Positions 2,278 through 59,257 of a stretch of DNA of 64,000 bases are shown here, in pieces; within the stretch, counting starts at the first letter, position 1; each line of letters starts with the position of its first letter. The notes under the pieces were generated by a model. That model saw only the letters and a list, made by a program, of their open reading frames with translations, had not been told where the DNA came from and made no database searches. Source of the stretch: Chitinophagaceae bacterium. Its GTDB lineage: Bacteria; Bacteroidota; Bacteroidia; Chitinophagales; Chitinophagaceae. Location: the NCBI GenBank assembly GCA_023957155.1, contig JAMLHK010000002.1:62001-126000 (forward strand), read 5' to 3'. A program made the translations under genes and the position numbers.

Positions 2278-2314
2278 CTTTCCGGTCGGCACGCGACAGC
2301 GTCAGACCGGAAAG
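2278..2314. repeat. Type A palindromic repeat (copy 1)
   Basis: A 37-bp hairpin with 10-bp outer arms (CTTTCCGGTC / GACCGGAAAG) around a GTCGGCACGCG...CGTCAGAC core. It lies between two co-directional genes. A few bases of a decayed type B unit follow. It belongs to the repeat family found throughout the window. Confidence 0.9.
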
Positions 2315-2438
2315 ACTGCGGTCAGATTCGAATATTTCAACTCTCCGTCTGATCTCTCCATCGGTACCTGCGGCAGGCACCTTCCAATTCTACAGGCAGA
2401 AAGCTGAGTCCGGCAGCAAAAAACGACTCGTACATTCG

Positions 2439-2483
2439 TGGCATACTACCGGTTTGTTTTTTGAAACCGGCGAACACATGCCA
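2439..2483. promoter_or_regulatory. Nested inverted repeat upstream of maeB
   Basis: TGGCAT ... CCGGTTT-gttttttg-AAACCGG ... ATGCCA forms a two-part stem. It ends about 35 bp before the maeB start and lies upstream of the AT-rich promoter-like stretch CTTAATTTG (2491-2499). It could be an operator or the 3' hairpin of the preceding gene. The rest of 2315-2517 shows no gene. Confidence 0.35.
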
Positions 2484-2517
2484 TGTTTTACTTAATTTGT
2501 AGGGTAATTCGGTTGAT

Positions 2518-4824
2518 ATGTCAAAAGAACTGAGAAAACAACAGGCGCTGGAATACCATACCCAGGGCAGGCCGGGTAAAATTGAAGTGGTACCTTCTAA
2601 GGAAGCTAAAACCCAGCGGGATCTTTCTCTTGCCTACTCACCCGGTGTGGCGGAGCCCTGTAAGGAGATCCTGAAGAATAAGGAATCTGTTTATACCTAT
2701 ACGGCTAAAGGAAATCTTGTGGCAGTGATCAGTAATGGCACGGCGGTACTGGGATTGGGTGATATCGGTCCCGAAGCGGGTAAGCCGGTAATGGAAGGGA
2801 AGGGAGTGCTGTTTAAAGTGTTTGCTGATATTGATGTGTTTGACATTGAGATCAATGAGAGAGATCCTGAAAAGTTTGTACAGATCGTGAAATCGCTTGA
2901 GCCAACCTTCGGCGGTATTAACTTGGAAGACATCAAAGCCCCTGAATGTTTTTATATCGAAAGGGCATTAAAGGAATCCATGCAGATCCCGGTGATGCAT
3001 GATGATCAGCATGGTACGGCAATCATCAGCTCGGCGGCTTTGATCAATGCGCTGGAGCTGCAGGGAAAAAAGATGAGCGAAGTACGTTTTGTTGTTAACG
3101 GGGCAGGAGCAGCCGCTATAGCCTGTGTGCAGCTGTATGAATCCCTGGGCGCTAAGAATAAAAATTTTATTCTTTTCGATAAAGAAGGTGTATTGTACCG
3201 GGGACGGCCGGGACTTGATGAGGTGAAGCAGCATTTTGCCACCACATCCAAAAAAGACCTTACGTTACCGGAAGCTATGCAGGGCGCTGATGTATTTATC
3301 GGACTAAGCGCAGCGGATACCGTTACCCCGGAGATGGTCAAAAGTATGGCCAAAAAACCGGTAGTATTTGCACTGGCAAATCCTGATCCGGAGATTACCT
3401 GGGAGGCGGCTACGGCTTCCCGTAAGGACATTATTATTGCTACCGGCCGCAGTGATTATCCCAACCAGGTCAATAATGTCCTCGGTTTTCCTTATATCTT
3501 CCGGGGGGCATTAGATGTGCGGGCAACCCGGATCAATGAAGCCATGAAAATGGCAGCGGTAAAGGCGCTGGCAGATTTAGCCAAAACACCCGTGCCGGAT
3601 ATGGTAATGATGGCTTATGGCGAGAAAAACTTAGTATTCGGTCCGCATTACATCATACCCAAGCCGTTGGATCCCCGGCTCATCTCTACCGTTTCTCCTG
3701 CAGTAGCCAGGGCTGCTATGGAAAGCGGGGTGGCGAGGCAGGCCATACCGGACTGGGAAAAGTATACAATTGAGCTGGATGACCGCCTGGGGAATGATAA
3801 CCAGTTGTTCAGGATCATCGGGAATAAAGCCCGGAAAGACCCGCGCCGGGTTGTATTTGCGGAAGCAGATAATATGAAGATCCTGAAAGCTGCCCAGATC
3901 GTGCTGGACGAGGAGATCGCACATCCCATCCTGCTGGGTGAGGAAAAAAAGATATCAAGGATCGCACTGGAGAATGGTATTGATTTAAAAGGTATCCCGG
4001 TCATTGATCCCCGGAGAGAGAAGTGGAATAAAATGCGTTATGATTTTGCTGACCTGTATTTTAAGAAGCGACAACGCCGTGGGGTTAATCATTATGAAGC
4101 GTCAAAGATCATGAAAGACCGGATTCGTTTTGCCTGCATGATGCTGAATACCGGTAATGCAGATGCCGTTATCGGAGGGCTTACCCGGAATTATCCCGAA
4201 ACCGTAAGACCGGCATTGGAAATTGTCGGCACTGAGGAGGGGGTGAAAAAAATTGCGGGAATGTATATTATGGTTACTAAGAAAGGGCCTGTGTTTCTTG
4301 CAGATGCAACGGTAAATTTCAATCCAACGTCGGAGGAGCTTGCGGATATCACCCTGCTGGTGGCCAGGGAGGTAAAAAACCTGGGTATTACACCCCGTGT
4401 GGCATTGCTCAGCTATTCTAATTTTGGGAGCAGCAATACCCCGGAAGCCAATATGGTGCGTAAGGCAAGGGAACTATTGAAGCAAAAAGATCCTGAACTG
4501 GTTGTAGACGGGGAGATGCAGGGTATCCTTGCTTTTGATAAGGAAATTCTCAAAGAAAATTATCCTTTTAGCGAGCTGGTAGATAAGGATGTGAATGTGC
4601 TGATCTTTCCCAATTTAAGCGCCGGGAATATTGCGTATAACCTGTTGCAGGCCCTGGGTGGGTTTGATACGATAGGCCCTGTTTTGCTCGGTTTGGCCAA
4701 ACCTGTGCATGTGTTACAATTGGGCAGCTCGGTAAGGAGCATCGTAAATATGGTGCTGATTGCCGTGATGGATGCCCAGCAAAAATGTCCCCGGGACAGC
4801 TCCGGTTCCGGTAATGAGCAGTAG
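2518..4824 (+). CDS. maeB: NADP-dependent malic enzyme with phosphotransacetylase-like domain
   Basis: Oxidatively decarboxylates malate to pyruvate with production of NADPH. The N-terminal ~430 residues carry the malic enzyme signature ([36 protein letters not shown] as the dinucleotide fold). The C-terminal ~330 residues are a phosphotransacetylase-like domain ([11 protein letters not shown] ... [11 protein letters not shown]), which in MaeB proteins is thought to be regulatory rather than catalytic. The 768-residue length is normal for the fusion. ATG at 2518 matches the family N-terminus ([14 protein letters not shown]). It is monocistronic, and its 3' end faces a convergent TonB receptor across a repeat-filled gap. 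Confidence 0.95.
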
Positions 4825-4847
4825 GTGGTGCGTTTTGTTTTCGCGGT

Positions 4848-4884
4848 CTTTCCGGTCGGCACGCGATAGCGTCAGACCGGAAAG
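4848..4884. repeat. Type A palindromic repeat (copy 2)
   Basis: A 37-bp hairpin, arms CTTTCCGGTC / GACCGGAAAG, starting 24 bp after the maeB stop in the convergent gap between maeB and the TonB receptor gene. Confidence 0.9.
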
Positions 4885-4939
4885 CGTAATGGGAAGAAAA
4901 ATTTGGTTAATGCTACGCGTTACACTGTACCTGCTTTTT

Positions 4940-5040
4940 CGGTCTGACCTCTACGGGTACCGACTGCCGTCTTTCTTGCGGTCTGACCTTCGGTGCCGAC
5001 CGCGGTTTTTACCATCAGTACGCGGTAGCGCCAGACAGTG
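4940..5040. repeat. Degenerate B - B - A repeat block
   Basis: 4940-4966 is a diverged type B unit, 4978-5003 is a clean type B unit in reverse orientation (GCGGTCTGACC...GACCGC), and about 5011-5040 is a diverged type A unit whose arms still pair by G-U wobble. The block ends 13 bp from the stop codon of the convergent TonB receptor gene and fills the 3'-3' gap. Confidence 0.75.
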
Positions 5041-5052
5041 TAGTGTACTTTG

Positions 5053-7509
5053 CTATTCCTGGTCGAGTGTTTCTTTCGCTTTTTTCTTTACCTGCCGCAG
5101 CCGGTAGTTAAAGGTGAGATTGATTTGCCGCAGTCTTCCCTGCGACATGCTTTCGATATAAAAATTCGCTCCTTCGGTGATGGAACGGTACCGGCGTGAA
5201 TTAAACACATCCAGTACATTCAGGGTAAGTGTGGCTTTATCTTTAAGGACATCCTTGCTTACCGCTAAATCCATTGTGGCAATAGATCTTCGCCTGCCCT
5301 GCGGCGTTTGTTGCGGAGCTTCGTAATTGCCCCGTAGCTGGATATCCATATTTTTCCATACGGTGGCTTTCGACAGTAAACGCATCAGCCAGCTATAGGT
5401 ATCACTTTTAAACTCATCATTGAGGTTACTGCCATCGGTGATAGCACGAAAGAAATTAAAGCTGGCATCTGTTTTCCACCAGCTAAACACCGAGTAGGAG
5501 CCGGTGAGCTCCAGTCCAAATGAGTTCTCCGTTGCCAGGTTCCGGGGATACGTAAGGGAATTGCCCTGATCGTCTACTGTTTTTATGTGCAGTATTTTTC
5601 CTTTGGTATTTCTGTAGTATAACGATGAGCTGACGGACGCTTTGTCTAAATATTTGATATGCCCGACTTCAAACGCATGGGTAAACTCGGGGTTAAGATC
5701 GGGATTGCCGCTCCAGTAATTGCGGTTATCGCTATAGGTCATAAACGGACTGAGATCATTGTATTGCGGACGGCGTACCCTGCGGCTGTAGCTTACCTGT
5801 ATGGCATGTCCCTGCGGTAAATCGTAGGATACATGAGCGCTGGGAAAAAAGTTCAGGTATTTACGGGGATTCACTTCATGCGTTTGTTTCAGGGTAGTGG
5901 TTACCTGTGTGAGCTCGCCGCGGACACCCAATTGATAGGATAGCTTTTTTACTTTATTTCCTAATATGGCATAAACGGCGTTGATGTTCTCTTCATACAG
6001 GAAATTATTGGTTAGTCCCGGTAATTCAAACCAGTTGCCGTTGGCATCTTCTTCCGTTACGGTGTAGTTGTTGGTCATGTTACGAAAGCTGCTGCGTAAG
6101 CCGGCTTCAAACTTCCCTTTTTCTCCAAAGGGATGTACATAGTCTGTTTGGAAGAGATATTGTTTTTCTGTTTCAAAATTTACAGCGCGCTGAAGGATAA
6201 AAGGGATGCCGGAATGGCTGCCATCGGGATGATAATCCTGCTGGCCAAAGTATTGATCAGAGTTTTCCCAGTTATCTAAGTATCGTGCATCGGCGGTAAA
6301 TTCCTGCCCCTTCCGGGCAAAGGTTCTCTTATAGCTAAGCGCATATTCCGAATTGGGTTCGGTTTCTGTTTCATCCTGTGTGCGGTGTGTAAATCCGGTA
6401 AGGTTTTTCAGCGTGGATTCGTAATCATGAAAGAAAATATCGGAATACCGTTTTCCTTTACTGATCCGGTAGGTATAGGCGGCCGTGAGTATATTTTTTT
6501 CATCAAAGAAATAATCCAGTCCCGCTCTTGCATTATTATACATCCCTTTTAAATGATGCTCCATATTTTTGGTGGAGATAAAGGTGCTGTTATCGCGGTA
6601 CAGTTCCTGGTACAAATTATTTTTACCCGGTGTGTTGCGATAAGATGCGGAGTAATTAACGAAGAAATTAAAGTCCTTATGGCGATAATTCATATTCGCT
6701 GCCAGTCCGAAATTTTCAGGATAACCTGCCACTACATCAAAAGAGCCATTAAGTCCCTGCTTTCGGTCTTTTTTCAATACAATATTTATGATACCGCCCA
6801 TCCCTTCCGCTTCGTAACGTGCAGACGGATTGGTAATGATCTCAACCCGCTCAATCATGCTCCCCTGGAGTTGCTGTAACCCGCTTCCACCTTTGATGCT
6901 GACTAATCCAGAAGGTTTGCCGTCAATCAATATCCGTACACTGCTGCTGCCCCTCAGGCTTACATTACCTTCAACATCTACAGCTACGGAAGGGATATTG
7001 CTTAAAACATCTGCTGCCGTGGCCCCTGCATTGGCCAGGTCTTTGCCTACGTTAAAGATCTTTTTATCTAAGGCTATTTCCATGGTACTCTTCTCTGCCT
7101 GGATAAATACTTCTTCTAATGTCTGCGAAGCAGAGGTGAGCAAAATCGTACCGAGGTCAAAAGGGCTATTATTTGCAGAGAGCCTGATCACGCCGGTTTT
7201 AAACGGGTGATAGCCGATAAAATCAACCAGGGCATAGTAGGTGCCGGCTGCGGCTTCCATAGTGAAGCTTCCTGACTCATTGGTGGTAACAGTGGACACT
7301 AAGGCGCTGTCGGCGGACTGACGTAACTGTACCGTAGCATAGCCGAGTGCGGTATGACTTTGCGCCTCTCTTACATTACCGGTAATAGTAAGTCCTGATT
7401 TTTTTTGTGCCTGCAGTGCAGGAGAAGCAATCCCCAAACATAAAAGCAAAGGGAGGGATATTTGATATACCGCTTGCTTTACAAAGCAAATACGATTCCT
7501 TCTGTTCAT
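5053..7509 (-). CDS. TonB-dependent outer-membrane receptor, OMP beta-barrel 3 type
   Basis: Outer-membrane beta-barrel transporter or receptor. After a signal peptide (RICFVKQAVYQISLPLLLCLG) comes a carboxypeptidase-regulatory-like domain (GLTITGNVREAQSHTALGYATVQL), then a plug (DVLSNIPSVAVDVEGNVSLRG; RVEIITNPSARYEAEGMGGIINIVLKK) and a long barrel rich in aromatic strand ends. I place the start at the ATG at 7509, eight codons inside the longest frame, because this gives a canonical basic-then-hydrophobic signal peptide; 818 aa. It lies 48 bp downstream of ddh on the same strand and may be co-transcribed, although there is no functional link. Cargo unknown; no SusD partner is nearby. Confidence 0.85.
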   Translation of the reverse strand: MNRRNRICFVKQAVYQISLPLLLCLGIASPALQAQKKSGLTITGNVREAQSHTALGYATVQLRQSADSALVSTVTTNESGSFTMEAAAGTYYALVDFIGYHPFKTGVIRLSANNSPFDLGTILLTSASQTLEEVFIQAEKSTMEIALDKKIFNVGKDLANAGATAADVLSNIPSVAVDVEGNVSLRGSSSVRILIDGKPSGLVSIKGGSGLQQLQGSMIERVEIITNPSARYEAEGMGGIINIVLKKDRKQGLNGSFDVVAGYPENFGLAANMNYRHKDFNFFVNYSASYRNTPGKNNLYQELYRDNSTFISTKNMEHHLKGMYNNARAGLDYFFDEKNILTAAYTYRISKGKRYSDIFFHDYESTLKNLTGFTHRTQDETETEPNSEYALSYKRTFARKGQEFTADARYLDNWENSDQYFGQQDYHPDGSHSGIPFILQRAVNFETEKQYLFQTDYVHPFGEKGKFEAGLRSSFRNMTNNYTVTEEDANGNWFELPGLTNNFLYEENINAVYAILGNKVKKLSYQLGVRGELTQVTTTLKQTHEVNPRKYLNFFPSAHVSYDLPQGHAIQVSYSRRVRRPQYNDLSPFMTYSDNRNYWSGNPDLNPEFTHAFEVGHIKYLDKASVSSSLYYRNTKGKILHIKTVDDQGNSLTYPRNLATENSFGLELTGSYSVFSWWKTDASFNFFRAITDGSNLNDEFKSDTYSWLMRLLSKATVWKNMDIQLRGNYEAPQQTPQGRRRSIATMDLAVSKDVLKDKATLTLNVLDVFNSRRYRSITEGANFYIESMSQGRLRQINLTFNYRLRQVKKKAKETLDQE

Positions 7510-7557
7510 TATTGCAGCTAAATAACAGGCCAAGAGTAAAACAGGTTTATACAGATA

Positions 7558-8535
7558 TTATAATAGCGTTTCCCGAAGCTCCTCCGGTGATTTAGGAGAC
7601 AGGTATCCCAGGGGAATATCAAATACGGTCCTTGCCCCGGTCTGACCTTCCTTTGCCATTTTCCCGATGGCCCGGGTATAGGCCACCAAAACACTGGCGG
7701 TAAACTCCGGGTTACTTTCTAAGCTCAGGCTGAATTCAATTCTTTGCCTGGAACCCTGCCCGGTAAACCCTGTACGAAATACCACACCTCCGTGCGGCAT
7801 AGCGGAATGGTTTGCTTTCAGCTCCTCTTCCGTGATAAAGTGAACCGTGGTTTCATAGTCGCTGAAGTAATGGGGCATTTGCTTGATGGTATTTTCAATC
7901 TCATGCAGATCGGCTCCTTCCCGGGCAACAACATAGCAGATGCGCTCATGCTTTTCGGATGTAGAGAGCTGCGGGTTTTCGCCCGAACGTACTTTCTCCA
8001 TTGCCGCTTCTTTAGGCAGGGTATACTGAACGCCGTTCTTAACACCGGGAACGCGCCTTATGGCATCTGAATGTCCCTGGCTCAGACCTTTACCCCAAAA
8101 CGTATAATCTTCGCCCTGCGGTAAAACACTTTGACCGAGCAGCCGGGCTAATGAAAACAGTCCCGGATCCCACCCGGTAGAGATCAGGCTGAGTGTTTTG
8201 TTAGCCTTTGCTGTTTCGTCTGCCTGTGTAAAATATTCGGGGATCTTTGCATGGGTATCAAAACTATCTACGGTATGGAACATTTTTGAAACTAAGGTTA
8301 CCTGCTCCGGCAGATCTTTTAATGATCCCCCGCAAAGGATCATGACATCAATTTTGTCTTTAAAATTTTCCATTTCATCTATGGCAACTACTTTTGCCCC
8401 GCTGTCTATGCTGGCAGGTGCTCTTCTTGAAAAGATAGCCACCAATTCCATATCGGGATTTTGTTTAATAGCCATTTCAACGCCTTTCCCTAAATTGCCG
8501 TAGCCAACTATACCGACTCTTAGATTTGTTTTCAC
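7558..8535 (-). CDS. ddh: meso-diaminopimelate D-dehydrogenase
   Basis: Catalyses reductive amination of tetrahydrodipicolinate to meso-diaminopimelate with NADPH and ammonia, a one-step bypass of the acyl-blocked DAP pathway. The N-terminus VGIVGYGNLGKGVE is the Rossmann NADP site. The motifs STGWDPGLFSLARLLG and WGKGLSQGHSDAIRR fit the family, and 325 residues is the usual length. The start codon is GTG at 8535, supported by a strong Shine-Dalgarno (AAGGAGG about 9 nt upstream), which is unusual in this phylum. DapF is encoded about 1.1 kb away, so two DAP routes may coexist. The TonB receptor gene follows after 48 bp. Confidence 0.93.
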   Translation of the reverse strand: MKTNLRVGIVGYGNLGKGVEMAIKQNPDMELVAIFSRRAPASIDSGAKVVAIDEMENFKDKIDVMILCGGSLKDLPEQVTLVSKMFHTVDSFDTHAKIPEYFTQADETAKANKTLSLISTGWDPGLFSLARLLGQSVLPQGEDYTFWGKGLSQGHSDAIRRVPGVKNGVQYTLPKEAAMEKVRSGENPQLSTSEKHERICYVVAREGADLHEIENTIKQMPHYFSDYETTVHFITEEELKANHSAMPHGGVVFRTGFTGQGSRQRIEFSLSLESNPEFTASVLVAYTRAIGKMAKEGQTGARTVFDIPLGYLSPKSPEELRETLL

Positions 8536-8637
8536 GCTGGTAGTCCTCCTTTTTTATTTCGCAAATTAAGCCGAATATGAAAAGGAGACCAAAAGTTTTT
8601 TACCGGTTGGGGCGGGTTTTAATGATACAGGTTGTGA

Positions 8638-9576: not shown

Positions 9577-9583
9577 TGCGGCG

Positions 9584-9591
9584 CAAAGGTA
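9584..9591 (-). promoter_or_regulatory. -7 promoter element of corA
   Basis: TACCTTTG on the minus strand, a perfect TAnnTTTG, 7 nt before the corA ATG. No clear -33 TTG is visible. Confidence 0.6.
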
Positions 9592-9678
9592 GGGGTATTA
9601 TGATTTGAGATCGAATTTGATTACCATATTAACCTGTGTTCTGATGCTTCATTCGATACGGACCGGTTGCCACATTTT

Positions 9679-10470: not shown

Positions 10471-10487
10471 GCCCGGTATTTATTGTA

Positions 10488-10495
10488 CAAAGTTA
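10488..10495 (-). promoter_or_regulatory. -7 promoter element of dapF
   Basis: TAACTTTG on the minus strand, perfect TAnnTTTG, 17 nt upstream of the dapF ATG. Confidence 0.6.
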
Positions 10496-10564
10496 TTGGC
10501 TGATGATATTCAAACCTGAAATAAGTTTAAGATATCCGGTATAAAATTGCTGCAACGGACTGGT

Positions 10565-21564: not shown

Positions 21565-21909
21565 ATGAAATTTGTAGTTTCCGTTCTACTCATGATATTA
21601 CTGAGTTTTTTAGCCTGCTTATATCTTCCCTGGTGGAGTATAGCCGTAGTTTCTTTTGTAATTCCCCTGGTCATTATTCAAAAGCCCTTCATGGCTTTTT
21701 TAGCCGGTTTTGTTGCTCTTTTTTTACTTTGGGGTGGGCTTACCTTACTGATCAGTACCGCAAACAATCATTTGCTGGCACATAAAATTTCTATGCTGGT
21801 CATAAAAGCAGATGCCCCGTTGCTGCTGATTACCGTTACGGCATTCATTGGTGGGGTAGTAGCTGCATTTTCAGCGCTCAGCGGCTCTCTGTTCAGGAGG
21901 CTGTTTTAG
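21565..21909 (+). CDS. Small integral membrane protein of unknown function (114 aa)
   Basis: Family not recognised. It has four hydrophobic segments: about residues 1-20, 22-40, 43-65 and 84-106, with short loops and a basic C-terminus (LFRRLF). The TAG stop is followed after 1 nt by a type B repeat. It lies 147 bp downstream of the penicillin acylase gene on the same strand, and the gap 21418-21564 holds no other feature I can see. Confidence 0.65.
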   Translation: MKFVVSVLLMILLSFLACLYLPWWSIAVVSFVIPLVIIQKPFMAFLAGFVALFLLWGGLTLLISTANNHLLAHKISMLVIKADAPLLLITVTAFIGGVVAAFSALSGSLFRRLF

Positions 21910-21910
21910 T

Positions 21911-21934
21911 GGTCGGCACCGCAGGTCAGACCGC
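21911..21934. repeat. Type B palindromic repeat, abutting a stop codon
   Basis: GGTCGGCACC...GGTCAGACC, a 24-bp piece of unit B starting 1 nt after the stop of the small membrane protein gene. Confidence 0.85.
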
Positions 21935-22139
21935 TATGTCAGCCGGTGTTAACAAGCGCCATTGGTATGCAGGGCCGGTAATGCGGTTGTTGCGTATCAA
22001 CGACAGGGAGTTGAACAAGCTGGTGTATTAATATAGGCTGTGCTGCGGAACGATACCGATCGCATTCCTTCGTCTGATATAACAAAAGCACTATTTCAAA
22101 ATAGCAGATAGGATTAACTGCAATTTTTATTTTATTACC

Positions 22140-22205
22140 CTTTCCGGTCTGACGCTATCGCGTACTGACCGGAAAGGCTGCGGTCGGCACCACAGGTCAG
22201 ACCGC
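22140..22205. repeat. A+B repeat pair
   Basis: Type A 22140-22176 (arms CTTTCCGGTC / GACCGGAAAG), then GCT, then type B 22180-22205. The stretch 21935-22139 between repeats shows no gene. Confidence 0.9.
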
Positions 22206-22268
22206 AGTTCTTAAAAATACAAGATAAAAATAACTGCTACCATTAATTGCAAATGTTAGCTCATTGCC

Positions 22269-22312
22269 CTTCCCGGTCTGACGCTATCGCGTGCCGACCG
22301 GAAAGGCTGCGG
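22269..22312. repeat. Type A repeat plus truncated B, next to the trhO promoter
   Basis: Type A at 22269-22305 (left arm with one C substitution), then GCTGCGG, where unit B stops. The trhO promoter region begins immediately after. Confidence 0.85.
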
Positions 22313-22344
22313 CATGAACCCGCTTCAAACTCCAAAACATCTCT

Positions 22345-31314: not shown

Positions 31315-31320
31315 ACGTAC

Positions 31321-31588
31321 GCGGTCGGCACCGCAGGTCAGACCGCTCCAAGCAGATTCAATGTATAGTATATAGTATTAACTGGTTCTTTCACTTCTGT
31401 TAAGCTTTACCGTCTGACGCTACCGCGTGCCGACGGTAAAGGCTGCGGTCGGTACCGCAGGTCGGACCGCAAAAAGGTTCAATGTAACGTTTAACATTAA
31501 CCGATTCTTTCATTTGCGTTAAGTTTACCGTCTGACGCTACCGCGTGCCGACGGTAAAGGCTGCGGTCGGTACCGCAGGTCAGACCGC
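31321..31588. repeat. B - A+B - A+B repeat array in a convergent gap
   Basis: B 31321-31346, A 31405-31441, B 31445-31470, A 31523-31559, B 31563-31588. Unit period is 124 then 118 bp. In both A units the outer arms are CTTTACCGTC / GACGGTAAAG (the second starts with G), a paired change relative to other clusters. The linkers share 'ATTAAC(T/C)G(G/A)TTCTTTCA' and 'GTTAAG'. The array fills the gap between two convergent genes. Confidence 0.9.
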
Positions 31589-31603
31589 AAAAAAGCCTAT
31601 GGC

Positions 31604-35390: not shown

Positions 35391-35420
35391 GTTAATGCAG
35401 GACATAGCATGGGGAAATCT

Positions 35421-35668
35421 GCCAATGGTGCTGACCGCAATACAGTCGGTACGCGTAGCGTCAGACTGTATTGCTTAACAGAATGAAAAATCGGTTAATG
35501 CTAAACGTTGTACTGAACCTGCTTTTGCGGTCTGACCTTCGGTGCCGACCGCAATACAGTCGGCACGCGAAAGCGTCAGACTGTACAACTTAACGGAATA
35601 GAAGAATTGGTTAATGCTGGTATTATACTGAATTTGCTTTTTGCGGTCTGACCTATGGTGCCGACCGC
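35421..35668. repeat. Reverse-oriented B-A-B-A-B repeat array with altered A stems
   Basis: Truncated B 35421-35438, A 35438-35473, B 35527-35552, A about 35552-35587, B 35643-35668; B-to-B period 116 bp. The first A has arms CAATACAGTC / GACTGTATTG, again changed on both sides; the second keeps TACAGTC / GACTGTA. Linkers are the reverse complement of those in the other arrays (CTTAAC ... GGTTAATG). Located between the broken fucosidase gene and uvrA. Confidence 0.9.
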
Positions 35669-35727
35669 AGTTCGGCTTTCTTTAGGAACCCCATTTGCTA
35701 CTTTTTTTAGTATCTTCGTCACCTTTT

Positions 35728-43647: not shown

Positions 43648-43652
43648 AGCCA

Positions 43653-44164
43653 GCGGTCGGCACCCGAAGGGTCAGACCGCTGGGATGTGCAGACAAAAAA
43701 ATGCCCGGCATTAGCCAGTCTATATTATTCTGTTAAGCTTTCCGGTCTGACGCCGTTGCGTGCCGACCGGAAAGGCAGCGGTCGGTACCGAAGGTCAGAC
43801 CGCGAAAAATGTAGGCTTAAAAAAATATCTGGTATTAGCCAGCCTCTTTATTCTGTTAAGCTTTCCGGTCTGACGCCGTTGCGTACTGACCGGAAAGGCA
43901 GCGGTCGGTACCGGAGGTCAGACCGCGAAAAATGTCGGCTTAAAAAAATGCCCGGTATTAGCCAGCCTCTTTATTCTGTTAAGCTTTCCGGTCTGACGCC
44001 GTTGCGTGCCGACCGGAAAGGCAGCGGTCAGCACCGAAGGTCAGACCGCGAAAAATGTCGGCTTAAAAAAATATCTGGTATTAGCCAGCTTCTTTATTCT
44101 GTTAAGCTTTCCGGTCTGACGCCGTTGCGTACCGACCGGAAAGGCGCGGTCTATGGTCTGCCGC
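43653..44164. repeat. Tandem array of the A/B repeat with an exact 123-bp period
   Basis: B 43653-43680 (with an extra C and matching G that add one stem pair), A 43738-43774, B 43778-43803, A 43861-43897, B 43901-43926, A 43984-44020, B 44024-44049, A 44107-44143, remnant B 44146-44164. A starts are exactly 123 bp apart. As 123 is divisible by 3, a plus-strand frame of 179 codons (43687-44226) stays open as a 41-residue repeat; it has no start context or family and is not called a gene. The array fills the gap between two convergent genes. Confidence 0.93.
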
Positions 44165-52784: not shown

Positions 52785-52913
52785 TCTTTTGGTTAAGAGA
52801 GGATGTATTGAGCCGGGATACTCAAAACACTTTATATATTTTTTAACCTATATCAACGAATATATTTTAAATTTTAGTATGTATATGTATAAAAGTTTCT
52901 GATCTTTTTCTCT

Positions 52914-52943
52914 CCGCCCCCCACCCGTATTTTCTGGGGGCGG
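52914..52943. repeat. GC-rich inverted repeat
   Basis: CCGCCCCC ... GGGGGCGG, 8-bp stem, in the AT-rich gap upstream of fecR where a sigma gene would be expected. No T run on either side. The rest of 52785-52961 shows no gene and no -7 element that I can place. Confidence 0.4.
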
Positions 52944-52961
52944 AAAGTTGCATTCCCGTTC

Positions 52962-53044
52962 TTCCGTTAAGCTTTCCGGTCTGACGCCGTTGCGTACCGA
53001 CCGGAAAGGCAGCGGTTGGTGGGGTGTTTGTTGGTATAGTATGA
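52962..53044. repeat. 83-bp direct repeat, left copy flanking vapBC (contains type A unit 52972-53008)
   Basis: Matches 53888-53970 at 81 of 83 positions. The A unit (arms CTTTCCGGTC / GACCGGAAAG) is followed not by unit B but by a tail GCGGTTGGTGGGGTGTTTG that occurs only in these two copies. Ends 16 bp from the vapC stop. Confidence 0.88.
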
Positions 53045-53060
53045 ATATGACGGTGTTAAG

Positions 53061-53465
53061 TCACTTTAGCCAATTCATAAGCTCAAGCCCCTTGATCCTT
53101 TTGAAATGGTCAATATTGTTTGTTACCAATTGTAAGTCGTTGGTCAAGGCAATTCCAGCTATTAAACAATCTGTATGTCCGATTGGCTGACCTATCTTTT
53201 TGAGTTCAGCATATATCTCTGCAGCCTGGTGTGTTGCACTAATCGTTAGAGGGAGAATTTTATTTAATTGGGAAAATTCCGTGAACTTTTTCAATTGTTT
53301 CCTGGCATCTTTGTAAAGTAGTCCGTTTAAAATTTCATAATAGGTAATGATACTGAGATTAATTGCGTCATAGTCTTTTAAATATCTTTCCACCTGCTTT
53401 ACTACTTGGGGTGTCCCACGCAAGAACTCGGAAAGTATATCAGTGTCTACCAATGCAGGTTTCAT
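53061..53465 (-). CDS. vapC: PIN-domain ribonuclease toxin, VapC-like
   Basis: Mg2+-dependent RNase toxin. PIN motifs: VDTDILSEFLRGT near the N-terminus (first Asp), ILNGLLY with preceding Glu in YYEI, and IGHTDCLIAGIALTNDLQLVTNNIDHF (conserved Asp residues). 134 aa, normal. It overlaps the antitoxin gene by 4 bp. The module sits between 83-bp direct repeats. Confidence 0.9.
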   Translation of the reverse strand: MKPALVDTDILSEFLRGTPQVVKQVERYLKDYDAINLSIITYYEILNGLLYKDARKQLKKFTEFSQLNKILPLTISATHQAAEIYAELKKIGQPIGHTDCLIAGIALTNDLQLVTNNIDHFKRIKGLELMNWLK

Positions 53466-53701
53466 ACATTAATATCTCGTTCAAAAAGATCACTTCGGGT
53501 CTGCTTGATTTGTTTTTTAAACTCCCTATAGTCTTTGGTGGACATATCAGCCAGGGATCCTGCAAAAGAAAGAATTTTTTTACTTGCATTATCCGACTTC
53601 TTAGTGCTTACTCGTAAAGAATGGATAATAGAATATAAATCTTCCAGTCTGTCAACTGGAACGTTTTTAAGTTCTTTTAATATAGTATTGAGTGTCATCA
53701 T
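53462..53701 (-). CDS. Antitoxin partner of the VapC-like toxin (79 aa)
   Basis: A small protein with a predicted N-terminal helix pair (LNTILKELKNVPVDRLEDLYS) and basic, probably disordered C-terminus that would wrap the toxin (FKKQIKQTRSDLFERDINV). Function inferred mainly from the 4-bp overlap with vapC. TATCTTTG lies 8 nt upstream of the ATG. The next codon is also ATG. Confidence 0.75.
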   Translation of the reverse strand: MMTLNTILKELKNVPVDRLEDLYSIIHSLRVSTKKSDNASKKILSFAGSLADMSTKDYREFKKQIKQTRSDLFERDINV

Positions 53702-53709
53702 GAATGACT

Positions 53710-53717
53710 CAAAGATA
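53710..53717 (-). promoter_or_regulatory. -7 promoter element of vapBC
   Basis: TATCTTTG on the minus strand, 8 nt before ATG 53701; predicts a leader of only a few nucleotides. Confidence 0.55.
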
Positions 53718-53812
53718 ATAATTTCCCCTGATTGAACCGAAGGAATGTTACGTAAAATCGTTGCTAATGGTTGAGCATTTGTGGTGGTACCGAAGCTTTG
53801 GGATGAAAGGCA

Positions 53813-53838
53813 GCGGTCGGTACCGGAGGTCAGACCGC
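53813..53838. repeat. Type B palindromic repeat
   Basis: GCGGTCGGTACC...GGTCAGACCGC, joined by the usual linker to the A unit at 53898. Together they form one full B-linker-A composite. Confidence 0.9.
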
Positions 53839-53887
53839 GGGAAATGCTCAGGTTTAAAATAACACCTGGTATTAACCGGTTTATTTA

Positions 53888-53970
53888 TTCCGTTAAGCTT
53901 TCCGGTCTGACGCCGTTGCATACCGACCGGAAAGGCAGCGGTTGGTGGGGTGTTTGTTGGTATAGCATGA
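53888..53970. repeat. 83-bp direct repeat, right copy flanking vapBC (contains type A unit 53898-53934)
   Basis: 81 of 83 bases match 52962-53044; offset 926 bp. Recombination between the two copies would remove exactly the vapBC segment. Confidence 0.88.
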
Positions 53971-54034
53971 GTGCAAGTGGTTGTTTGTCAGGTTGTTAGA
54001 TGCCTCCGTCCGAAAAATTTAGACAAAATAGATT

Positions 54035-54064
54035 TTGAAAAAGTTACCTAAATAGCTAACTTTG
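54035..54064 (+). promoter_or_regulatory. Promoter of the higBA-like operon
   Basis: TTTTG ending at 54037, a 19-nt spacer, then TAACTTTG (54057-54064): ideal Bacteroidota promoter. Four nt separate it from the GTG start at 54069. Confidence 0.75.
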
Positions 54065-54068
54065 TTCT

Positions 54069-54425
54069 GTGGGACAAAATTTTATCAGGAACGTTTTTTA
54101 CTACAAGCATTACTTTCTGGACTTCTTCGCTAACTTAACTGAAGATGTTCAACGAAAGTTTGATTGGACTTTGGAACTCATCGCAACGACAGAACGTATT
54201 CCTATAAAATATTTTAAACACATAGAAGGCACGACAGGACTTTATGAAATTAGGGTTGAGGCCGGTAGCAATATTTTTAGAGCTTTTGCCTTTTTTGACC
54301 AGGGACAACTAATCGTTGTTGCAAACGGCTTTCAGAAAAAATCGCAAAAGACACCTAAAAATGAAATAGAATTAGCAAAGAAAATTCAAAAAGAATATTT
54401 TAATGAAAAAGGCAAAACAAAATAA
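54069..54425 (+). CDS. higB: RelE/HigB-family toxin
   Basis: Ribosome-dependent mRNA interferase of the HigB/phage Gp49-like group. KHIEGTTGLYEIRVEAGSNIFRAF split by short loops, and VVANGFQKKSQKTPKNEIELA, are characteristic. 118 aa. The frame has a stop at 54057-54059 and no Met codon, so GTG 54069 is the only plausible start; it falls at the predicted transcription start. Toxin-first order and a 23-bp overlap with the antitoxin gene are typical of HigBA. Confidence 0.88.
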   Translation: MGQNFIRNVFYYKHYFLDFFANLTEDVQRKFDWTLELIATTERIPIKYFKHIEGTTGLYEIRVEAGSNIFRAFAFFDQGQLIVVANGFQKKSQKTPKNEIELAKKIQKEYFNEKGKTK

Positions 54426-54711
54426 CCTGACTTCGTTCAGCGACCATCTTGACAACCGTTATGGGAAACGTGGCACTGCATCCCGTGAGGCTTACGAGCA
54501 AGAATTTGAAGCCTTTAAATTGGGTGTGTTGATTCAAGAAATGCGTGAAAAGCAAAACATGACACAGGAACAACTTGCTGCAAAATGTGGAACAACAAAA
54601 TCGTATATTTCAAGAATTGAGAACAATGCAAGTGATATAAGACTTTCGACACTTATGCGTATCATTCAACAAGGTTTAGGTGGACATTTACGTTTGACAG
54701 TTGCTTCCTGA
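54403..54711 (+). CDS. higA: XRE-family antitoxin
   Basis: Helix-turn-helix antitoxin and autorepressor. The HTH spans about residues 45-95 (LIQEMREKQNMTQEQLAAKCG, TTKSYISRIENNASDIRLSTL, each split by a turn). 102 aa; overlaps higB by 23 bp. After it, 54712-54947 contains no gene I can support. Confidence 0.9.
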   Translation: MKKAKQNNLTSFSDHLDNRYGKRGTASREAYEQEFEAFKLGVLIQEMREKQNMTQEQLAAKCGTTKSYISRIENNASDIRLSTLMRIIQQGLGGHLRLTVAS

Positions 54712-54947
54712 CAATGGCACGAACAAACAACATTGGATTTTATGCAAGTTGGGTTTGACATTGTAACATCAGCTAATTATAAATCCCAGCTTCAGTTCCA
54801 GCTTGACGAATAACTATCAGCTGTTGTACTTAACTTCACCAACATATCTTCAATCAGCAATGGTTATCGGCAGACGGAATATTAATTCCCAGCCTGCATA
54901 AAGCCCTGTTCGTTGTATGTGATGCATGAAAGCATATTAAAATTTGT

Positions 54948-54974
54948 AGTATATACTATTTGTATATACTTTTG
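54948..54974 (+). promoter_or_regulatory. Operator-promoter of the RHH-MazF-like module
   Basis: Two copies of the palindrome GTATATAC (54949-54956 in AGTATATACT, and 54962-54969), 13 bp apart. The second overlaps the -7 element TACTTTTG (54967-54974). This looks like an autorepression site for a ribbon-helix-helix antitoxin. Confidence 0.6.
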
Positions 54975-54989
54975 CAAAAAAACAGAATC

Positions 54990-55220
54990 ATGAAAACTCT
55001 TTCACTCAAACTGGACGATAACGTTTTTGAAGAAACGGAAAAGGTTGTTTCAGAATTGAACCTTGCACGAAACCGCTATATAAATGAAGCACTTAATCTC
55101 TACAATCAGTTTAATAAAAGACGAATTCTAAAAAAGAAACTTGCCAAAGAAAGTAAACTGGTAGCTCAAAGTTCATTTGAAGTACTATCCGAATTTGAAA
55201 AAATAGCCGATGAAATATAA
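54990..55220 (+). CDS. Ribbon-helix-helix-like antitoxin (76 aa)
   Basis: N-terminal strand-helix MKTLSLKLDDNVFEETEKVV followed by a second helix (ARNRYINEALNLYNQFNKRR, after SELNL) has RHH character; the C-terminus is acidic and helical. Start ATG 54990, after the promoter; the longer frame from 54960 runs through the promoter. Overlaps the toxin gene by 11 bp. Confidence 0.82.
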   Translation: MKTLSLKLDDNVFEETEKVVSELNLARNRYINEALNLYNQFNKRRILKKKLAKESKLVAQSSFEVLSEFEKIADEI

Positions 55221-55545
55221 GCAGCATGATATCTGGCTTGCTGACTTAAATCCAACAGTTGGAACAGAGCCCGGTAAAACGAGACCTGTGGTAATCATTC
55301 AAACTGACCTTCTCAATGACACACACTTATCAACTATAGTGTGTCCGATAACAACGAACGTCAAAGCCGAAGTGGAAATTTTACGGGTTCATTTAAAAAA
55401 ATCACAACTGCCGAAATTGAGCGATATTTTGGTTGACCAACCAAGAGCGATAGACAACGAGCGTTTTATAAAAAGAATGGGTAAACTAACTAATGAACAG
55501 ATAGTTTTCCTCAAAGAAAACCTGAAAGTAATTTTGGATTTATAA
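55210..55545 (+). CDS. PemK/MazF-family mRNA interferase toxin
   Basis: Sequence-specific endoribonuclease toxin. KQHDIWLADLNPTVGTEPGK then TRPVVIIQTDLLND, and TIVCPITTN with VDQPRAIDNERF, match MazF/PemK. 111 aa, usual length. Paired with the RHH antitoxin upstream. Confidence 0.92.
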   Translation: MKYKQHDIWLADLNPTVGTEPGKTRPVVIIQTDLLNDTHLSTIVCPITTNVKAEVEILRVHLKKSQLPKLSDILVDQPRAIDNERFIKRMGKLTNEQIVFLKENLKVILDL

Positions 55546-55680
55546 GAAAATTTTCTGCTACCGGTAGGTATCTCACCGGGCGGAATATCGCGTATGAAGC
55601 AAAAACTTGAAATATACCTGTTTTTTGCAGTTTCTCATCTTTATTCCTATTCATGTCTAAAGACGAAATAAAATACGAAA

Positions 55681-56148
55681 TCAGTAAAGTCCCTGATCTT
55701 TTTCTCCCTGACCTTCCCAGTCCGGTATTTCTTTCAGGGGCAGAAAATCGCTCCCGGTTCTTTCAAAAGCAAAACAATAGGAACCGTTGGTAAGTACCAG
55801 GTATCTTACCGGGAGGGCCATATTATATCGTATGATCTGTTCTGCAACGGTGGAATCAATAGGTATATCCATGGCTTTACACTCGGTTATTAATAACGGG
55901 TTTGCCAACGGGTCATAAACAATAATGTCGCATCGCTTAACCAACCCGCCGAGCCGGATTTCCTTTTCCACCGCGATTAAGGCGCCCGGGTATTTTTTTA
56001 CCTGTATGAGATATTGGAGAAAATTTTGCCTTACCCATTCTTCCGGGGTGAGCGTTACCCATTGTTTACGGATATTGTCGAATATCCGTTCCTTTCCATT
56101 CACTGCTTTGATCTTATAAGGGTATGTCGGGTATGCTATTTTAATCAT
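55681..56148 (-). CDS. Type I restriction HsdR N-terminal domain protein
   Basis: A stand-alone nuclease-like domain related to the N-terminus of HsdR (PD-(D/E)xK fold). RIFDNIRKQWVTLTPEEWVR near the start, then EIRLGGLVKRCDIIVYDPLANPLLITECKAMDIP, where the Asp...Glu-x-Lys (ECK) gives the catalytic set (written here with a loop at ITE). No motor or specificity domains. 155 aa from ATG 56148; ATG 56178 is possible. Common in Bacteroidota as a single gene; function not established. Confidence 0.82.
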   Translation of the reverse strand: MIKIAYPTYPYKIKAVNGKERIFDNIRKQWVTLTPEEWVRQNFLQYLIQVKKYPGALIAVEKEIRLGGLVKRCDIIVYDPLANPLLITECKAMDIPIDSTVAEQIIRYNMALPVRYLVLTNGSYCFAFERTGSDFLPLKEIPDWEGQGEKDQGLY

Positions 56149-56209
56149 GCTTAAAAATGGATTTGCTAATTTAGACATTTAAAACGGCATTTGTGATCTT
56201 GCTCCCCTT

Positions 56210-57979
56210 ATGCTTCCACTGTTATCCATAAAAAATCTGAGTATAAGCTTCCGTCAGCATGGAAAGCCCGTACCGGCATTACACGGTATATCCTTTTCCG
56301 TTAACCGGGGCGAAACCGTAGCGGTAGTGGGTGAGTCGGGTTCGGGAAAATCAGTTACTTCTCTTGCCATTCTTCAATTATTACCTGTTCCTCCAGCAGA
56401 ATATCATAGCGGCGAGGTTATATTTTCGCCGCAGGGTGAAGCCGGTATTGATCTGTTGCGGTTGTCGCAAAAAGAAATGCAGGCAGTGAGGGGAAATAAG
56501 ATTGCCATGATTTTCCAGGAGCCTATGACATCGCTTAATCCCCTGTATACCTGTGGTGACCAGGTTATGGAAGCGATCCGGTTACACCAGGCCATTAGCG
56601 TTACCCATGCAAAGCAAAAAACCATTGCGTTGTTTGAAAAAGTCCAATTGCCTGATCCTGTCGCCATGTTCAGCCGCTATCCTCATGAAATAAGCGGCGG
56701 GCAGAAGCAAAGGGTGATGATTGCCATGGCCATGAGCCGTGAGCCGGCGCTTCTGATAGCTGATGAGCCTACTACTGCGCTGGATGTAACCGTTCAGCAA
56801 AACATTCTTCAACTGATAAAGCAGTTACAGGCCGAGAAGAATATGGGTGTTGTTTTTATCAGCCATGATCTCGGGCTTGTAGCAGAGATTTCCGACCGTA
56901 TTGTAGTTATGTTCAGGGGAAATATCGTTGAACAAAATACAACCCGGGAATTGTTAACTAACCCCCGGCATCCTTATACAAAAGCTTTACTGGCCTGTCG
57001 TCCTGTGCTTCATGCTAAAGGAGACCGGCTGCCGGTGGTCAATGATTTTATGGAAACAGACGAAAGAGGCAATATAAAATGGAAAGACAGAGTAATAGAG
57101 ATCGTACGCCCGACTGAGGAGAGGGTGGTCAGTCAACCTTTAGTAAAAGATATTTCCATGGCGGCTGAACAACCGGTTACCGCAGGCGCCGCTCCATTGG
57201 TGAAAGTGGAAAACCTGGGTGTATGGTTTCCTTCGGCACGAAAAAAGCAGGTTGCCCGCACACATTATGTAAAAGCCGTGGATGAGGTAAGCGTTGAAAT
57301 ATTCAAAGGAGAAACGGTTGGGCTGGTTGGAGAATCCGGTTGTGGAAAAACCACGCTGGGAAGAAGCCTGCTTCGTTTGATCGAGCCGGATTTCGGAGCC
57401 GTGTATTTCCGGGGACAGGATCTGCTGCGTTTGTCCTCCGTACAGTTGCGGAGAATGCGGAAAAATATTCAGATTATTTTTCAGGATCCTTATTCTTCGC
57501 TCAATCCGCGTCTTACTATCGGAAGCGCCATACAGGAAGTGATGACCGTTCACGGGCTGGGAGAAAACGCCAACGCCCGGAAGGAACTGATCATGCAGCT
57601 ACTGGAAAAAGTAAGCCTTAGTACTGCTCACTATAACCGCTATCCCCACGAGTTTAGCGGAGGGCAGCGCCAACGGATAGGCATTGCCCGGGCATTGGCC
57701 TTATCTCCCGAGTTTATTATCTGTGATGAATCGGTTTCAGCGCTGGACGTAAGTGTACAGGCGCAGGTACTTAATTTACTTAATGATTTAAAAGCGGAGT
57801 TTGGGTTTGCAGCTCTTTTTATCTCTCACGATCTTTCGGTAGTTCGTTATATCAGCGACCGGATCATGGTGATGCACAAAGGCCGGATAGTAGAATCCGG
57901 TACGGCAGAAGAGGTTTACCGGCATCCCCAAAGCACCTACACCCGGAAACTCATTGCGGCTATACCCGGTTTTATTTAG
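56210..57979 (+). CDS. Fused oligopeptide/dipeptide ABC transporter ATP-binding protein (DppD-DppF type)
   Basis: Two ABC domains in one chain of 589 residues. Walker A VGESGSGKSVTSLAIL (~40) and VGESGCGKTTLGRSLL (~374), Q loops FQEPMTSLNPLYTCGDQV and FQDPYSSLNPRLTIGSAI, signatures SGGQKQRVMIAMAM and SGGQRQRIGIARAL, Walker B ADEPTTALDVT and CDESVSALDVS. Each ends in the oligopeptide-type region (RHPYTKALLACRPV; HPQSTYTRKLIAAIPG). No permease or binding protein genes are adjacent, so they must be elsewhere. The second Walker B has Glu then Ser where the first has Glu-Pro. Confidence 0.93.
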   Translation: MLPLLSIKNLSISFRQHGKPVPALHGISFSVNRGETVAVVGESGSGKSVTSLAILQLLPVPPAEYHSGEVIFSPQGEAGIDLLRLSQKEMQAVRGNKIAMIFQEPMTSLNPLYTCGDQVMEAIRLHQAISVTHAKQKTIALFEKVQLPDPVAMFSRYPHEISGGQKQRVMIAMAMSREPALLIADEPTTALDVTVQQNILQLIKQLQAEKNMGVVFISHDLGLVAEISDRIVVMFRGNIVEQNTTRELLTNPRHPYTKALLACRPVLHAKGDRLPVVNDFMETDERGNIKWKDRVIEIVRPTEERVVSQPLVKDISMAAEQPVTAGAAPLVKVENLGVWFPSARKKQVARTHYVKAVDEVSVEIFKGETVGLVGESGCGKTTLGRSLLRLIEPDFGAVYFRGQDLLRLSSVQLRRMRKNIQIIFQDPYSSLNPRLTIGSAIQEVMTVHGLGENANARKELIMQLLEKVSLSTAHYNRYPHEFSGGQRQRIGIARALALSPEFIICDESVSALDVSVQAQVLNLLNDLKAEFGFAALFISHDLSVVRYISDRIMVMHKGRIVESGTAEEVYRHPQSTYTRKLIAAIPGFI

Positions 57980-58005
57980 ATTTTGTATTCAAATCATTAT
58001 TCCCT

Positions 58006-58013
58006 TACCTTTG
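58006..58013 (+). promoter_or_regulatory. -7 promoter element upstream of queA
   Basis: TACCTTTG, perfect TAnnTTTG, giving a leader of about 120 nt before queA that contains a 28-codon frame. Confidence 0.6.
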
Positions 58014-58039
58014 CACGCTGTTCAAATTTAGCTATTTAC

Positions 58040-58126
58040 ATGAAACCTGGTACCGTAAGATCAGGTTTAGGAAAAATAAAGATACCTCGCCGTGTTGATA
58101 AGGGTAAGTTTCATGTGACTGCTTAA
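58040..58126 (+). CDS. Possible small basic protein (28 aa) in the queA leader
   Basis: ATG at 58040, about 20 nt after the predicted transcription start, encodes [20 protein letters not shown] followed by KGKFHVTA and TAA. Strongly basic and Gly/Lys-rich, resembling small ribosomal proteins only in composition. Ends 16 nt before queA. Could be a genuine micro-protein, an upstream regulatory frame, or chance. Confidence 0.4.
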
Positions 58127-58142
58127 AATAATAAAAACGCAG

Positions 58143-59192
58143 ATGAAATTATCACAATTCCGCTTTGACCTCCCCCTTAATCTTATTGCACAACATCCCG
58201 CTAAAAAAAGAGAAGATGCCCGTTTAATGGTTGTACACCGTGAAAGTGGCCAGATTGAAAACAAGCATTTCCGGGATGTGCTGGATTATTTTGATGACAG
58301 GGATGTATTTGTAGTTAATAATACCAAGGTATTTCCTGCCAGAATGTACGGACGCAAGGAAAAAACGGGGGCAAAAATTGAAGTGTTCCTCCTTCGGGAA
58401 CTGAATCATCAGAATAAATTGTGGGATGTTATTGTTGATCCGGCGCGAAAGATCAGGGTGGGAAATAAATTGTATTTCGGTGAAGCGGAAGACCTGGTAG
58501 CCGAAGTAATAGATAATACCACTTCACGTGGCAGGACTATTCGTTTCCTGTTTGACGGAACAAACGAGGAGTTTAAGCAGGTGCTGAATACCCTAGGTGA
58601 AACACCATTACCCAAGTATATTAAACGCAAGCCCGATGAAGAAGACCGCGAACGTTACCAAACCGTTTATGCCAAGCATGAAGGTGCGGTTGCTGCGCCT
58701 ACCGCCGGGTTGCATTTTAGTGTAGAACTTATCAAGCGCCTTGAAATTAAAGGCATTCGTTTTGCCGAAATTACGCTGCATACCGGGTTAGGTACCTTCC
58801 GGCCTATAGAAGTAGAAGACCTGAGCAAGCATAAAATGGATGCCGAGTACTACCGGATTGAGGAGAAAGCCTGTGGTATTGTTAATAAGGCAAGGCTCGA
58901 TGGAAGAAGGATCTGTTCTGTTGGCACCACTACGATGAGAGCTTTAGAATCTTCTTTTACTTCTGATAAATTATTGAAGCCTTCCGAGGGATGGACCAAT
59001 ACGTTTATACATCCGCCGTATGACTTCTCTATAGCCGATTCGCTGATTACCAATTTCCACCTCCCTAAAACCAGCCTGCTAATTATGACCTGTGCATTTG
59101 CGGGTTACGACCTGGCCATGGAGGCTTATAAAAGAGCTATTAAAGATAAATACCGGTTTTTCAGCTACGGTGATGCCATGCTGGTCATTTAA
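58143..59192 (+). CDS. queA: S-adenosylmethionine:tRNA ribosyltransferase-isomerase
   Basis: Adds the ribosyl part of AdoMet to preQ1 in tRNA, forming epoxyqueuosine. [82 protein letters not shown] and [19 protein letters not shown] are all diagnostic (longer ones span a turn). 349 aa. A strand with trhO elsewhere in the window, also a wobble-position modifier, but not linked. Confidence 0.97.
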
Positions 59193-59231
59193 TAATTTCT
59201 GTTTTTCCTGTATAGGATGATTTCCTTTAAT

Positions 59232-59257
59232 GCGGTCGGTACCGGGGGACGCAATAG
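59232..59257. repeat. Decayed repeat remnant
   Basis: GCGGTCGGTACCG then GGGGACGCAATAGC: the left half of unit B joined to a piece resembling the centre of unit A. Lies in the gap 59193-59472, which otherwise holds only AT-rich sequence and the asnA promoter. Confidence 0.6.

Follow-up and report, generated by a model that had tools for sequence, protein, structure and literature searches.

An intergenic hairpin family of Bacteroidota, probably of the REP type, and its association with a clade of RAYT-type transposases

A 64-kb stretch of Chitinophagaceae bacterium contig JAMLHK010000002.1, referred to as the window in the following and part of a 4.61-Mb assembly of 26 contigs that is 88% complete, carries two related hairpins, A and B, which belong to a genome-wide, intergenic and structured family. 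These are very likely elements of the repetitive extragenic palindrome (REP) type, organized in inverted pairs and in arrays resembling bacterial interspersed mosaic elements (BIMEs), from a Bacteroidota lineage with a cognate Y1 (HuH) enzyme of the REP-associated tyrosine transposase (RAYT) type. The likeness to REP/BIME elements follows from the finding that the same hairpins bracket a REP-type transposase gene in relatives.

Structure and distribution of the A and B hairpins

The A hairpin consists of an outer stem of 10 bp, an internal loop with TG opposite GCC, an inner stem of 4 bp and a loop of 4 nt. The B hairpin is a shorter relative with the same core and an internal loop that is likewise asymmetric (TG opposite GCC/RCC). 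The pattern GGTCTGAC is matched 25 times in the window, while 100 shuffles gave a mean of 0.73 and a maximum of 3 matches. The inventory comprises 14 A hairpins with up to two mismatches in the core plus a degenerate one, and 13 B hairpins of the same quality plus one variant and several half copies. This agrees with the roughly 15 A and 14 B hairpins counted in an earlier note on this DNA, and the common core with its asymmetric internal loop that was proposed there is real. In 41 A copies of the genome, of which 40 rows are distinct, standard pairs make up 96.6% of the cells (26–40% in slid controls) and 28 cells are changed on both sides as opposed to 5.7 in shuffles. For B (33 copies) the pairing reaches 95.3% of cells (slid controls 20–45%); covariation is weaker, as 8 cells are altered on both sides (4.3 in shuffles), all of them in the two outermost pairs. 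The number of pairs with both-side changes (2 versus 1.7) does not exceed that in shuffles. One array unit folded as single-stranded DNA gave hairpin z values of -2.4 to -5.8. Around the fixed core, the outer arms are often unlike between copies yet self-complementary.

Twenty-eight pairs of neighbouring hairpins are less than 20 nt apart. All 27 A-B pairs among them are inverted, 24 at identical spacing, with a spacer that is usually 3 nt long, and the remaining pair is B+B+. The repeat period in the window is approximately 115–129 nt, compared to 116–124 bp in the earlier note. Linkers were compared as the 62 nt preceding the A arm, which in short-period arrays include a few bases of B. Similarity was above the 99.9% shuffle level in 127 of 1035 linker pairs, 85 of which connect different fetched stretches; the resemblance of linkers from distant places indicates that the copied unit is larger than the hairpin.

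When the core pattern GGTCTGACN{5,8}GTRCYGACC was searched with the reversed pattern as control, 88 exact cores were found on 15 of the 26 contigs of the window's genome, where they look clustered, and the reversed pattern was not found at all. The pattern occurs in 5 of 12 genomes from the same genus and in large numbers only in two, namely the window's genome (88) and G279 (43), showing that copies are not confined to the window. Of 294 genomes from the family, 6 yielded matches, one of the six a single match (reversed control: one match in one genome). With a narrower B pattern, the window's genome was the sole match in a phylum-wide sample of 395 genomes, in which known carriers were evidently lacking. 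Scanning the GTDB collection with the B core gave at least 100 loci. The 100 that were fetched for analysis are all labelled Bacteroidota, and the carriers listed are Ferruginibacter, Roseivirga, Lacihabitans, Marivirga, a metagenome-assembled genome (MAG) labelled Spirosoma, and MAGs named merely Chitinophagaceae, Cytophagales, Sphingobacteriales or Bacteroidota. Apart from one tRNA, no Rfam family was detected in the window at gathering cut-offs, and the earlier statement that no described family is known to have this sequence holds among the literature matches listed, none of which is a repeat family with matching sequence.

RAYT-type transposases and the A/B core

A Y1 profile search of the 100 fetched loci returned seven open reading frames (ORFs): five of the RAYT type, one of the subclass 1.2 type (L184) and a weak one without HuH motif (L095). 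All five RAYT-type genes adjoin hairpins, the nearest at 12–60 nt, and four of them have hairpins on both sides within 114 nt, at 58 and 22 nt for L103 (Ferruginibacter), 13 and 30 nt for L168, 69 and 60 nt for L096 (Roseivirga seohaensis) and 12 and 114 nt for L117. The fifth, L130, has an array at 22 nt on one side and no hairpin with at most one mismatch on the other; it is identical with gene L191 of G279, the genus-mate of the window's genome, and its frame stops after 145 aa. Random placement within the same loci brought hairpins to within 120 nt on both sides in 1.2–3.1% of the trials per locus. The Y1 REP transposase gene flanked by the same hairpins, as predicted from the window, is found in relatives (5 of the 100 fetched loci) and was not found in the window's own assembly. 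In L103, one hairpin (2447–2468) is located within the 3' end of the RAYT frame and encodes part of the C terminus.

The five proteins share NHFHF, RQK and Y-x-H-x-NP; the HuH motif is NHFH in all of them, and the tyrosine motif reads YIHQNP in three proteins, YIHLNP in L168 and YTHQNP in L096. The best NCBIfam model is NF047646 (REP-associated tyrosine transposase) with 42–58 bits, below its cut-off of 80, and PF01797 is above cut-off in one of the five. The G279 gene scores 16 bits with PF01797, again below cut-off, and is matched by the profile of the five RAYTs, which includes this very gene. The sole match in the PDB is TnpArep 4er8 (E = 0.0015 over 30 profile positions).

The thirty best matches of that profile in the family (L188–L217) served for comparison. 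L191 has the A/B core, the other 29 lack it at one mismatch or less, and weaker look-alikes with two or three mismatches occur at L190, L192, L196, L201 and L212. Many of the 30 have other hairpins that are alike on both sides (judged by eye and without control), and GTCTGAC halves are common to L189, L190, L209, L212 and L201. The tree was calculated from 35 rows, i.e. 26 of the 30 relatives, the five RAYTs and four outgroups; L192, L198 and L212, in which no HuH ORF was found, and L191 as a duplicate of L130 were omitted. The five RAYTs and L209 make up one clade with support of 99/97, and the hairpin label takes two changes on the tree. For five random tips out of 31, the chance of all falling into one named six-tip clade is 3.5e-5, the clade having been named after the tree was seen. 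Hairpin type appears to follow transposase phylogeny, and a RAYT clade goes with the A/B hairpin core. A clade consisting of the five A/B RAYTs by themselves was considered and is not present in the best tree.

A PF01797 search of the window's genome revealed six Y1 genes, and in no case were A/B cores present on both flanks within about 1.5 kb. Two of the Y1 genes, L034 and L035 on contig C1 (at ~35.5 and ~19.9 kb), are near-identical copies of the IS200-like type that reside beside GGGTCTTCACAGCC-type hairpin sequence, and one A-B unit is situated approximately 280 nt from L035. A different RAYT-type gene, L036 (1240–2160; contig C25, ~77.3 kb), scores above the cut-off of the REP-associated tyrosine transposase model. 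It was rejected as mobilizer of the A/B hairpins on account of an unrelated hairpin seen by eye on both of its sides; a segment of 13 nt from this hairpin is not found in the window even when two mismatches are allowed. The L036 hairpin possibly constitutes a second REP family in this genome.

Several observations speak against the assignment to REP elements with a RAYT-type enzyme. The five loci were fetched by a hairpin scan, so that the presence of some hairpin nearby is in part a consequence of the selection, and at L130 the hairpins are limited to one side. Twenty-seven Y1 loci found with Pfam in six genomes, five of them hairpin-bearing, have no core within about 1.5 kb, and among the RAYTs found with the profile in four other hairpin-bearing genomes, one each in G100, G224 and G160 has flanks without core at up to three mismatches. 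The five RAYTs alone do not form a clade in the best tree, as L209 falls inside, and forcing them together is not rejected (approximately unbiased test, p-AU 0.41). The own assembly, 88% complete, shows no cognate RAYT (best E 0.007) and the same-genus copy in G279 is truncated; for these two reasons the elements look orphaned here and probably are. The canonical REP foot is absent from the window's genome, with GT[AG]G at 4 of 148 ends compared to 7 of 148 control positions and CGTC at 1 compared to 4; in other species GT[AG]G was seen at 29 of 304 ends (18 of 304 in the control) and CGTC at 3 (3). Movement was not seen either, the sole presence/absence difference (L107 versus L144, described below) being without direction.

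The lack of a RAYT in the own assembly, local arrays and 86-nt direct repeats around a toxin-antitoxin-like gene pair would also suit the idea that the hairpins are relics spread by recombination and tandem duplication alone, with RAYTs located by chance in hairpin-rich intergenic DNA. We consider this unlikely, because RAYTs of this clade carry the core, which does not occur at up to one mismatch next to the 29 other relatives, several of which have other hairpins on both sides as judged by eye, and because copies are distributed over 15 of 26 contigs. The interpretation as REP/BIME elements with an associated RAYT is supported through the relatives' RAYT loci, with the canonical foot absent.

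Placement relative to genes and arrangement in the window

Placement was analyzed in 369 kb of the window's genome, consisting of the window and 17 stretches picked for holding cores. This sample contains 88 hairpins with at most two mismatches, and the equality with the 88 exact cores in the whole genome is coincidental. The midpoints of only 2 of the 88 are inside ORFs of at least 200 aa, which cover 76.5% of the bases (binomial P = 2e-51 with array copies treated as independent); occurrence inside genes is thus far from equal. At a cut of 300 aa the number is 0 of 88, and at 150 aa it is 10 of 88, seven of these in a single ORF that spans the array at 43.7–44.1 kb. According to a simple gene caller, 33 hairpins reside in co-directional, 25 in convergent and 13 in divergent gaps, 10 in called ORFs (most of them short) and 7 past the last called gene of a stretch. 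As the called intergenic DNA amounts to 24.4 kb co-directional, 9.1 kb convergent and 10.8 kb divergent sequence (44.3 kb in total), hairpins are enriched roughly two-fold in convergent gaps, and there is no depletion in divergent ones. In the same sample and with the same caller, 4 of 29 hairpin-bearing gaps are divergent, which contradicts the claim that no copy lies between divergent starts. The window itself offers a counter-case with the hairpins at 53813–53934 between the leftward ORF 53462–53701 and the rightward ORF starting at 54069, provided that these are genes.

The strong intergenic placement, the start of some hairpins right beside a stop codon and the location of 25 of the 71 gap-placed hairpins in convergent gaps, i.e. 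in 9.1 of 44.3 kb, are features that would also be expected of intrinsic terminators or mRNA 3'-end stabilizers selected at gene ends without any link to mobility. Runs of T past the stem are, however, not enriched (at least five T in 7 of 176 tails and in 8 of 176 control stretches), and intrinsic terminators were rejected on this ground. A nearly fixed core across families and orders, alike linkers and the RAYT linkage are likewise unexpected for elements of this kind, and taken as a whole we regard this explanation as improbable, while a secondary role in mRNA stability is possible.

In the window, an A hairpin with an adjoining half-B is present at 2278–2314 (minus strand) in the gap 2170–2517. 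The convergent gap 4825–5052 holds an A hairpin (4848–4884, minus), a B variant with longer loop (4939–4967, plus), a B hairpin (4978–5003, plus) and the degenerate A hairpin with four core mismatches (5007–5043, minus). The genes flanking these two gaps are non-adjacent in four relatives. In the gap 21910–22313, a B hairpin at the stop codon of a gene (21909–21934, minus) is followed by an A hairpin (22140–22176, plus), a B hairpin 3 nt from it (22180–22205, minus) and a further A hairpin with a subsequent half-B (22269–22305, plus); three relatives are without core in the stretches taken but have more DNA. The convergent gap 31315–31603 starts with a B hairpin (31321–31346, minus) and continues with two A hairpins (31405–31441 and 31523–31559, plus) that alternate with two B hairpins (31445–31470 and 31563–31588, minus), and the orthologous stretch in G279 likewise has a B hairpin. 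Both A hairpins of this gap feature a compensatory arm change, and so do those in the gap 35391–35694 (35438–35473 and 35552–35588, minus), which are accompanied by B hairpins at 35527–35552 and 35643–35668 (plus); the G279 counterpart spans about 6.6 kb and is without core. In the convergent gap 43648–44150, a B hairpin with a longer loop directly past a stop codon (43653–43680, minus) precedes an array with four A copies (43738–43774, 43861–43897, 43984–44020 and 44107–44143, plus), the first three paired with B copies (43778–43803, 43901–43926 and 44024–44049, minus) and the fourth followed by a half-B. In G279, the core closest to the orthologue of the left gene is about 3.6 kb away from it, and the right neighbour was not found. 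A linker palindrome, CTGGTATTAGCCAG, occurs in this array at 43829–43842 and 44075–44088. None of the orthologous stretches of four gaps in relatives from the same genus is a clean empty site. The earlier note had correctly given the gaps at 4825, 31315 and 43648 as convergent, and the stop-adjacent starts it listed at 21911, 31321 and 43653 fit ORF ends at 21909, 31314 and 43647.

Further downstream, A hairpins at 52972–53008 and 53898–53934 (plus) are part of two 86-nt direct repeats (52959–53044 and 53885–53970; 97% identical), each consisting of an A hairpin and a non-hairpin tail, and a B hairpin is located at 53813–53838 (minus). The direct repeats bracket a gene for a PIN-domain (VapC-like) protein (53061–53465; PF01850, E = 3.5e-16) and a 79-aa ORF for a possible antitoxin (53462–53701), and this toxin-antitoxin-like pair may have been brought in by recombination at an A element. 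More small ORF pairs are found near the PIN gene at 54069–55545. Judged by eye, one of these ORFs has a helix-turn-helix look and one is PemK-like, and we take the region to be a possible toxin-antitoxin gene cluster. A half-B remnant is present at 59231–59251 (minus).

Variable arms, comparison with known REP systems and implications

The pairing of arms within their own copy was compared with that between arms of different copies by 2000 permutations per genome. Own-copy pairing is better, with none of the permutations reaching the observed value, in the window's genome (73 exact copies), G279 (35), F. paludis (12), RYN_280 (12) and RYN_298 (11), where F. paludis and RYN_298 share sites and are not independent. 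The observed value was reached in 12 of 2000 permutations for 339R (7 copies), 58 for UBA1946 (19), 215 for USDV042 (12) and 368 for UBA2793 (6), and an own-copy advantage was not seen in Roseivirga (16 copies, 1293/2000) and ES-bin-269 (8 copies, 1542/2000). Arms of at least 8 bp are present in 5 of 12 copies but in 0 of 132 cross pairs in F. paludis; the corresponding values for the window's genome are 3 of 73 copies and 59 of 5256 cross pairs. A arms are less private in the latter genome, with CTTTCC/GGAAAG occurring in 17 of 50.

Six orthologous stretches were compared between F. paludis and RYN_298. In one of them, a hairpin of F. paludis (L107) is replaced in RYN_298 (L144) by a shorter sequence forming a small palindrome, and in two other stretches one arm differs, with a matching palindrome in one species alone. 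Template switching has been reported to make and repair hairpin stems (PMC8794818). The differences between the two organisms fit template switching or insertion into palindromes, in either direction. It is conceivable, if rather doubtful, that the inherited and recognized unit is the core of 22–25 nt alone and that arms are written anew at each site, many copies thereby becoming private palindromes. New arms could then originate from fold-back (hairpin-primed) copying of flanking DNA or from a core that inserts into the loop of a palindrome already present.

The A/B hairpins resemble REP/BIME elements and REPINs with TnpA-REP (RAYT), as known for example from E. coli, in that they are short, intergenic, imperfect palindromes within the 20–40 nt typical of such elements and occur in two subtypes that form inverted pairs and arrays. 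As in REPs of the E. coli type, a stretch in the stem is unpaired and a Y1/HuH gene is flanked by the repeats in some carriers; in E. coli, it is important for TnpA-REP that the bulge is unpaired (PMC8266576). Unlike these systems, the A/B hairpins have no GT[AG]G foot, the A-B spacer is usually 3 nt, the arms differ between copies in several species, and a cognate RAYT is missing from the window's assembly. A survey from 2018 notes 'atypical secondary structures' beside Bacteroidetes genes of TnpA-Y1 subclass 2.6/RAYT group 5 (PMC6006769). Compared by the description given there, our proteins have in common with subclass 2.6 the occurrence in Bacteroidetes, YIH[QN]NP in three of the five, and flanking hairpins without GT[AG]G of which copies exist elsewhere in the genome. 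They deviate by their NHFH, since the survey gives the HuH motif of subclass 2.6 as NH[LIV]H and lists F for 2.4 (PMC6006769). GTAG- and CGTC-tagged REP superfamilies, the latter reported from five phyla including Bacteroidetes, are similarly intergenic, frequently located between co-directional and convergent genes and form inverted dimers (PMC3733652); in contrast to those superfamilies, the hairpin feet of the window's genome show no enrichment of either tag.

It is highly improbable that the core is maintained as a structured RNA or as a site bound by a protein, for instance a motif for the nucleoid, replication or segregation, and that transposition is incidental. In line with such a role, the 22-nt core hardly varies among carriers labelled as Chitinophagaceae and as genera of the Cytophagales type, the scan having selected for this core. 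Against it stand the patchy spread (6/294 genomes in the family, 5/12 in the genus with high numbers in two alone, and the own genome alone among 395 phylum-wide, where known carriers were missed) and the Rfam result, a single tRNA in the window at gathering cut-offs.

For REP-type elements with a RAYT-type enzyme, the transposase would bind single-stranded DNA in its folded form, at an invariant core composed of a 4-bp stem, the loop with TG opposite (R)CC and the inner stem. It would then nick beside the core and copy or move units of A, B and linker. In the genome of the window, the enzyme may have been lost or may be encoded in the unassembled part, in which case the present copies would be mostly inherited and locally duplicated. 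The outer arms would not be recognized by sequence, and either template switching by fold-back or selection for a hairpin could keep them complementary.

We are thus dealing with a nearly undescribed and patchily distributed hairpin family of Bacteroidota that is linked to RAYTs of a clade lacking the GTAG guide, and this linkage makes REP recognition without that foot testable. Arms that are unlike between copies and yet complementary lead one to ask how REP stems originate and persist, and compensatory changes in such repeats do not necessarily point at selection on RNA. Should the arms indeed be written anew at each site, this would be a REP lineage that customizes its own stem at the target.

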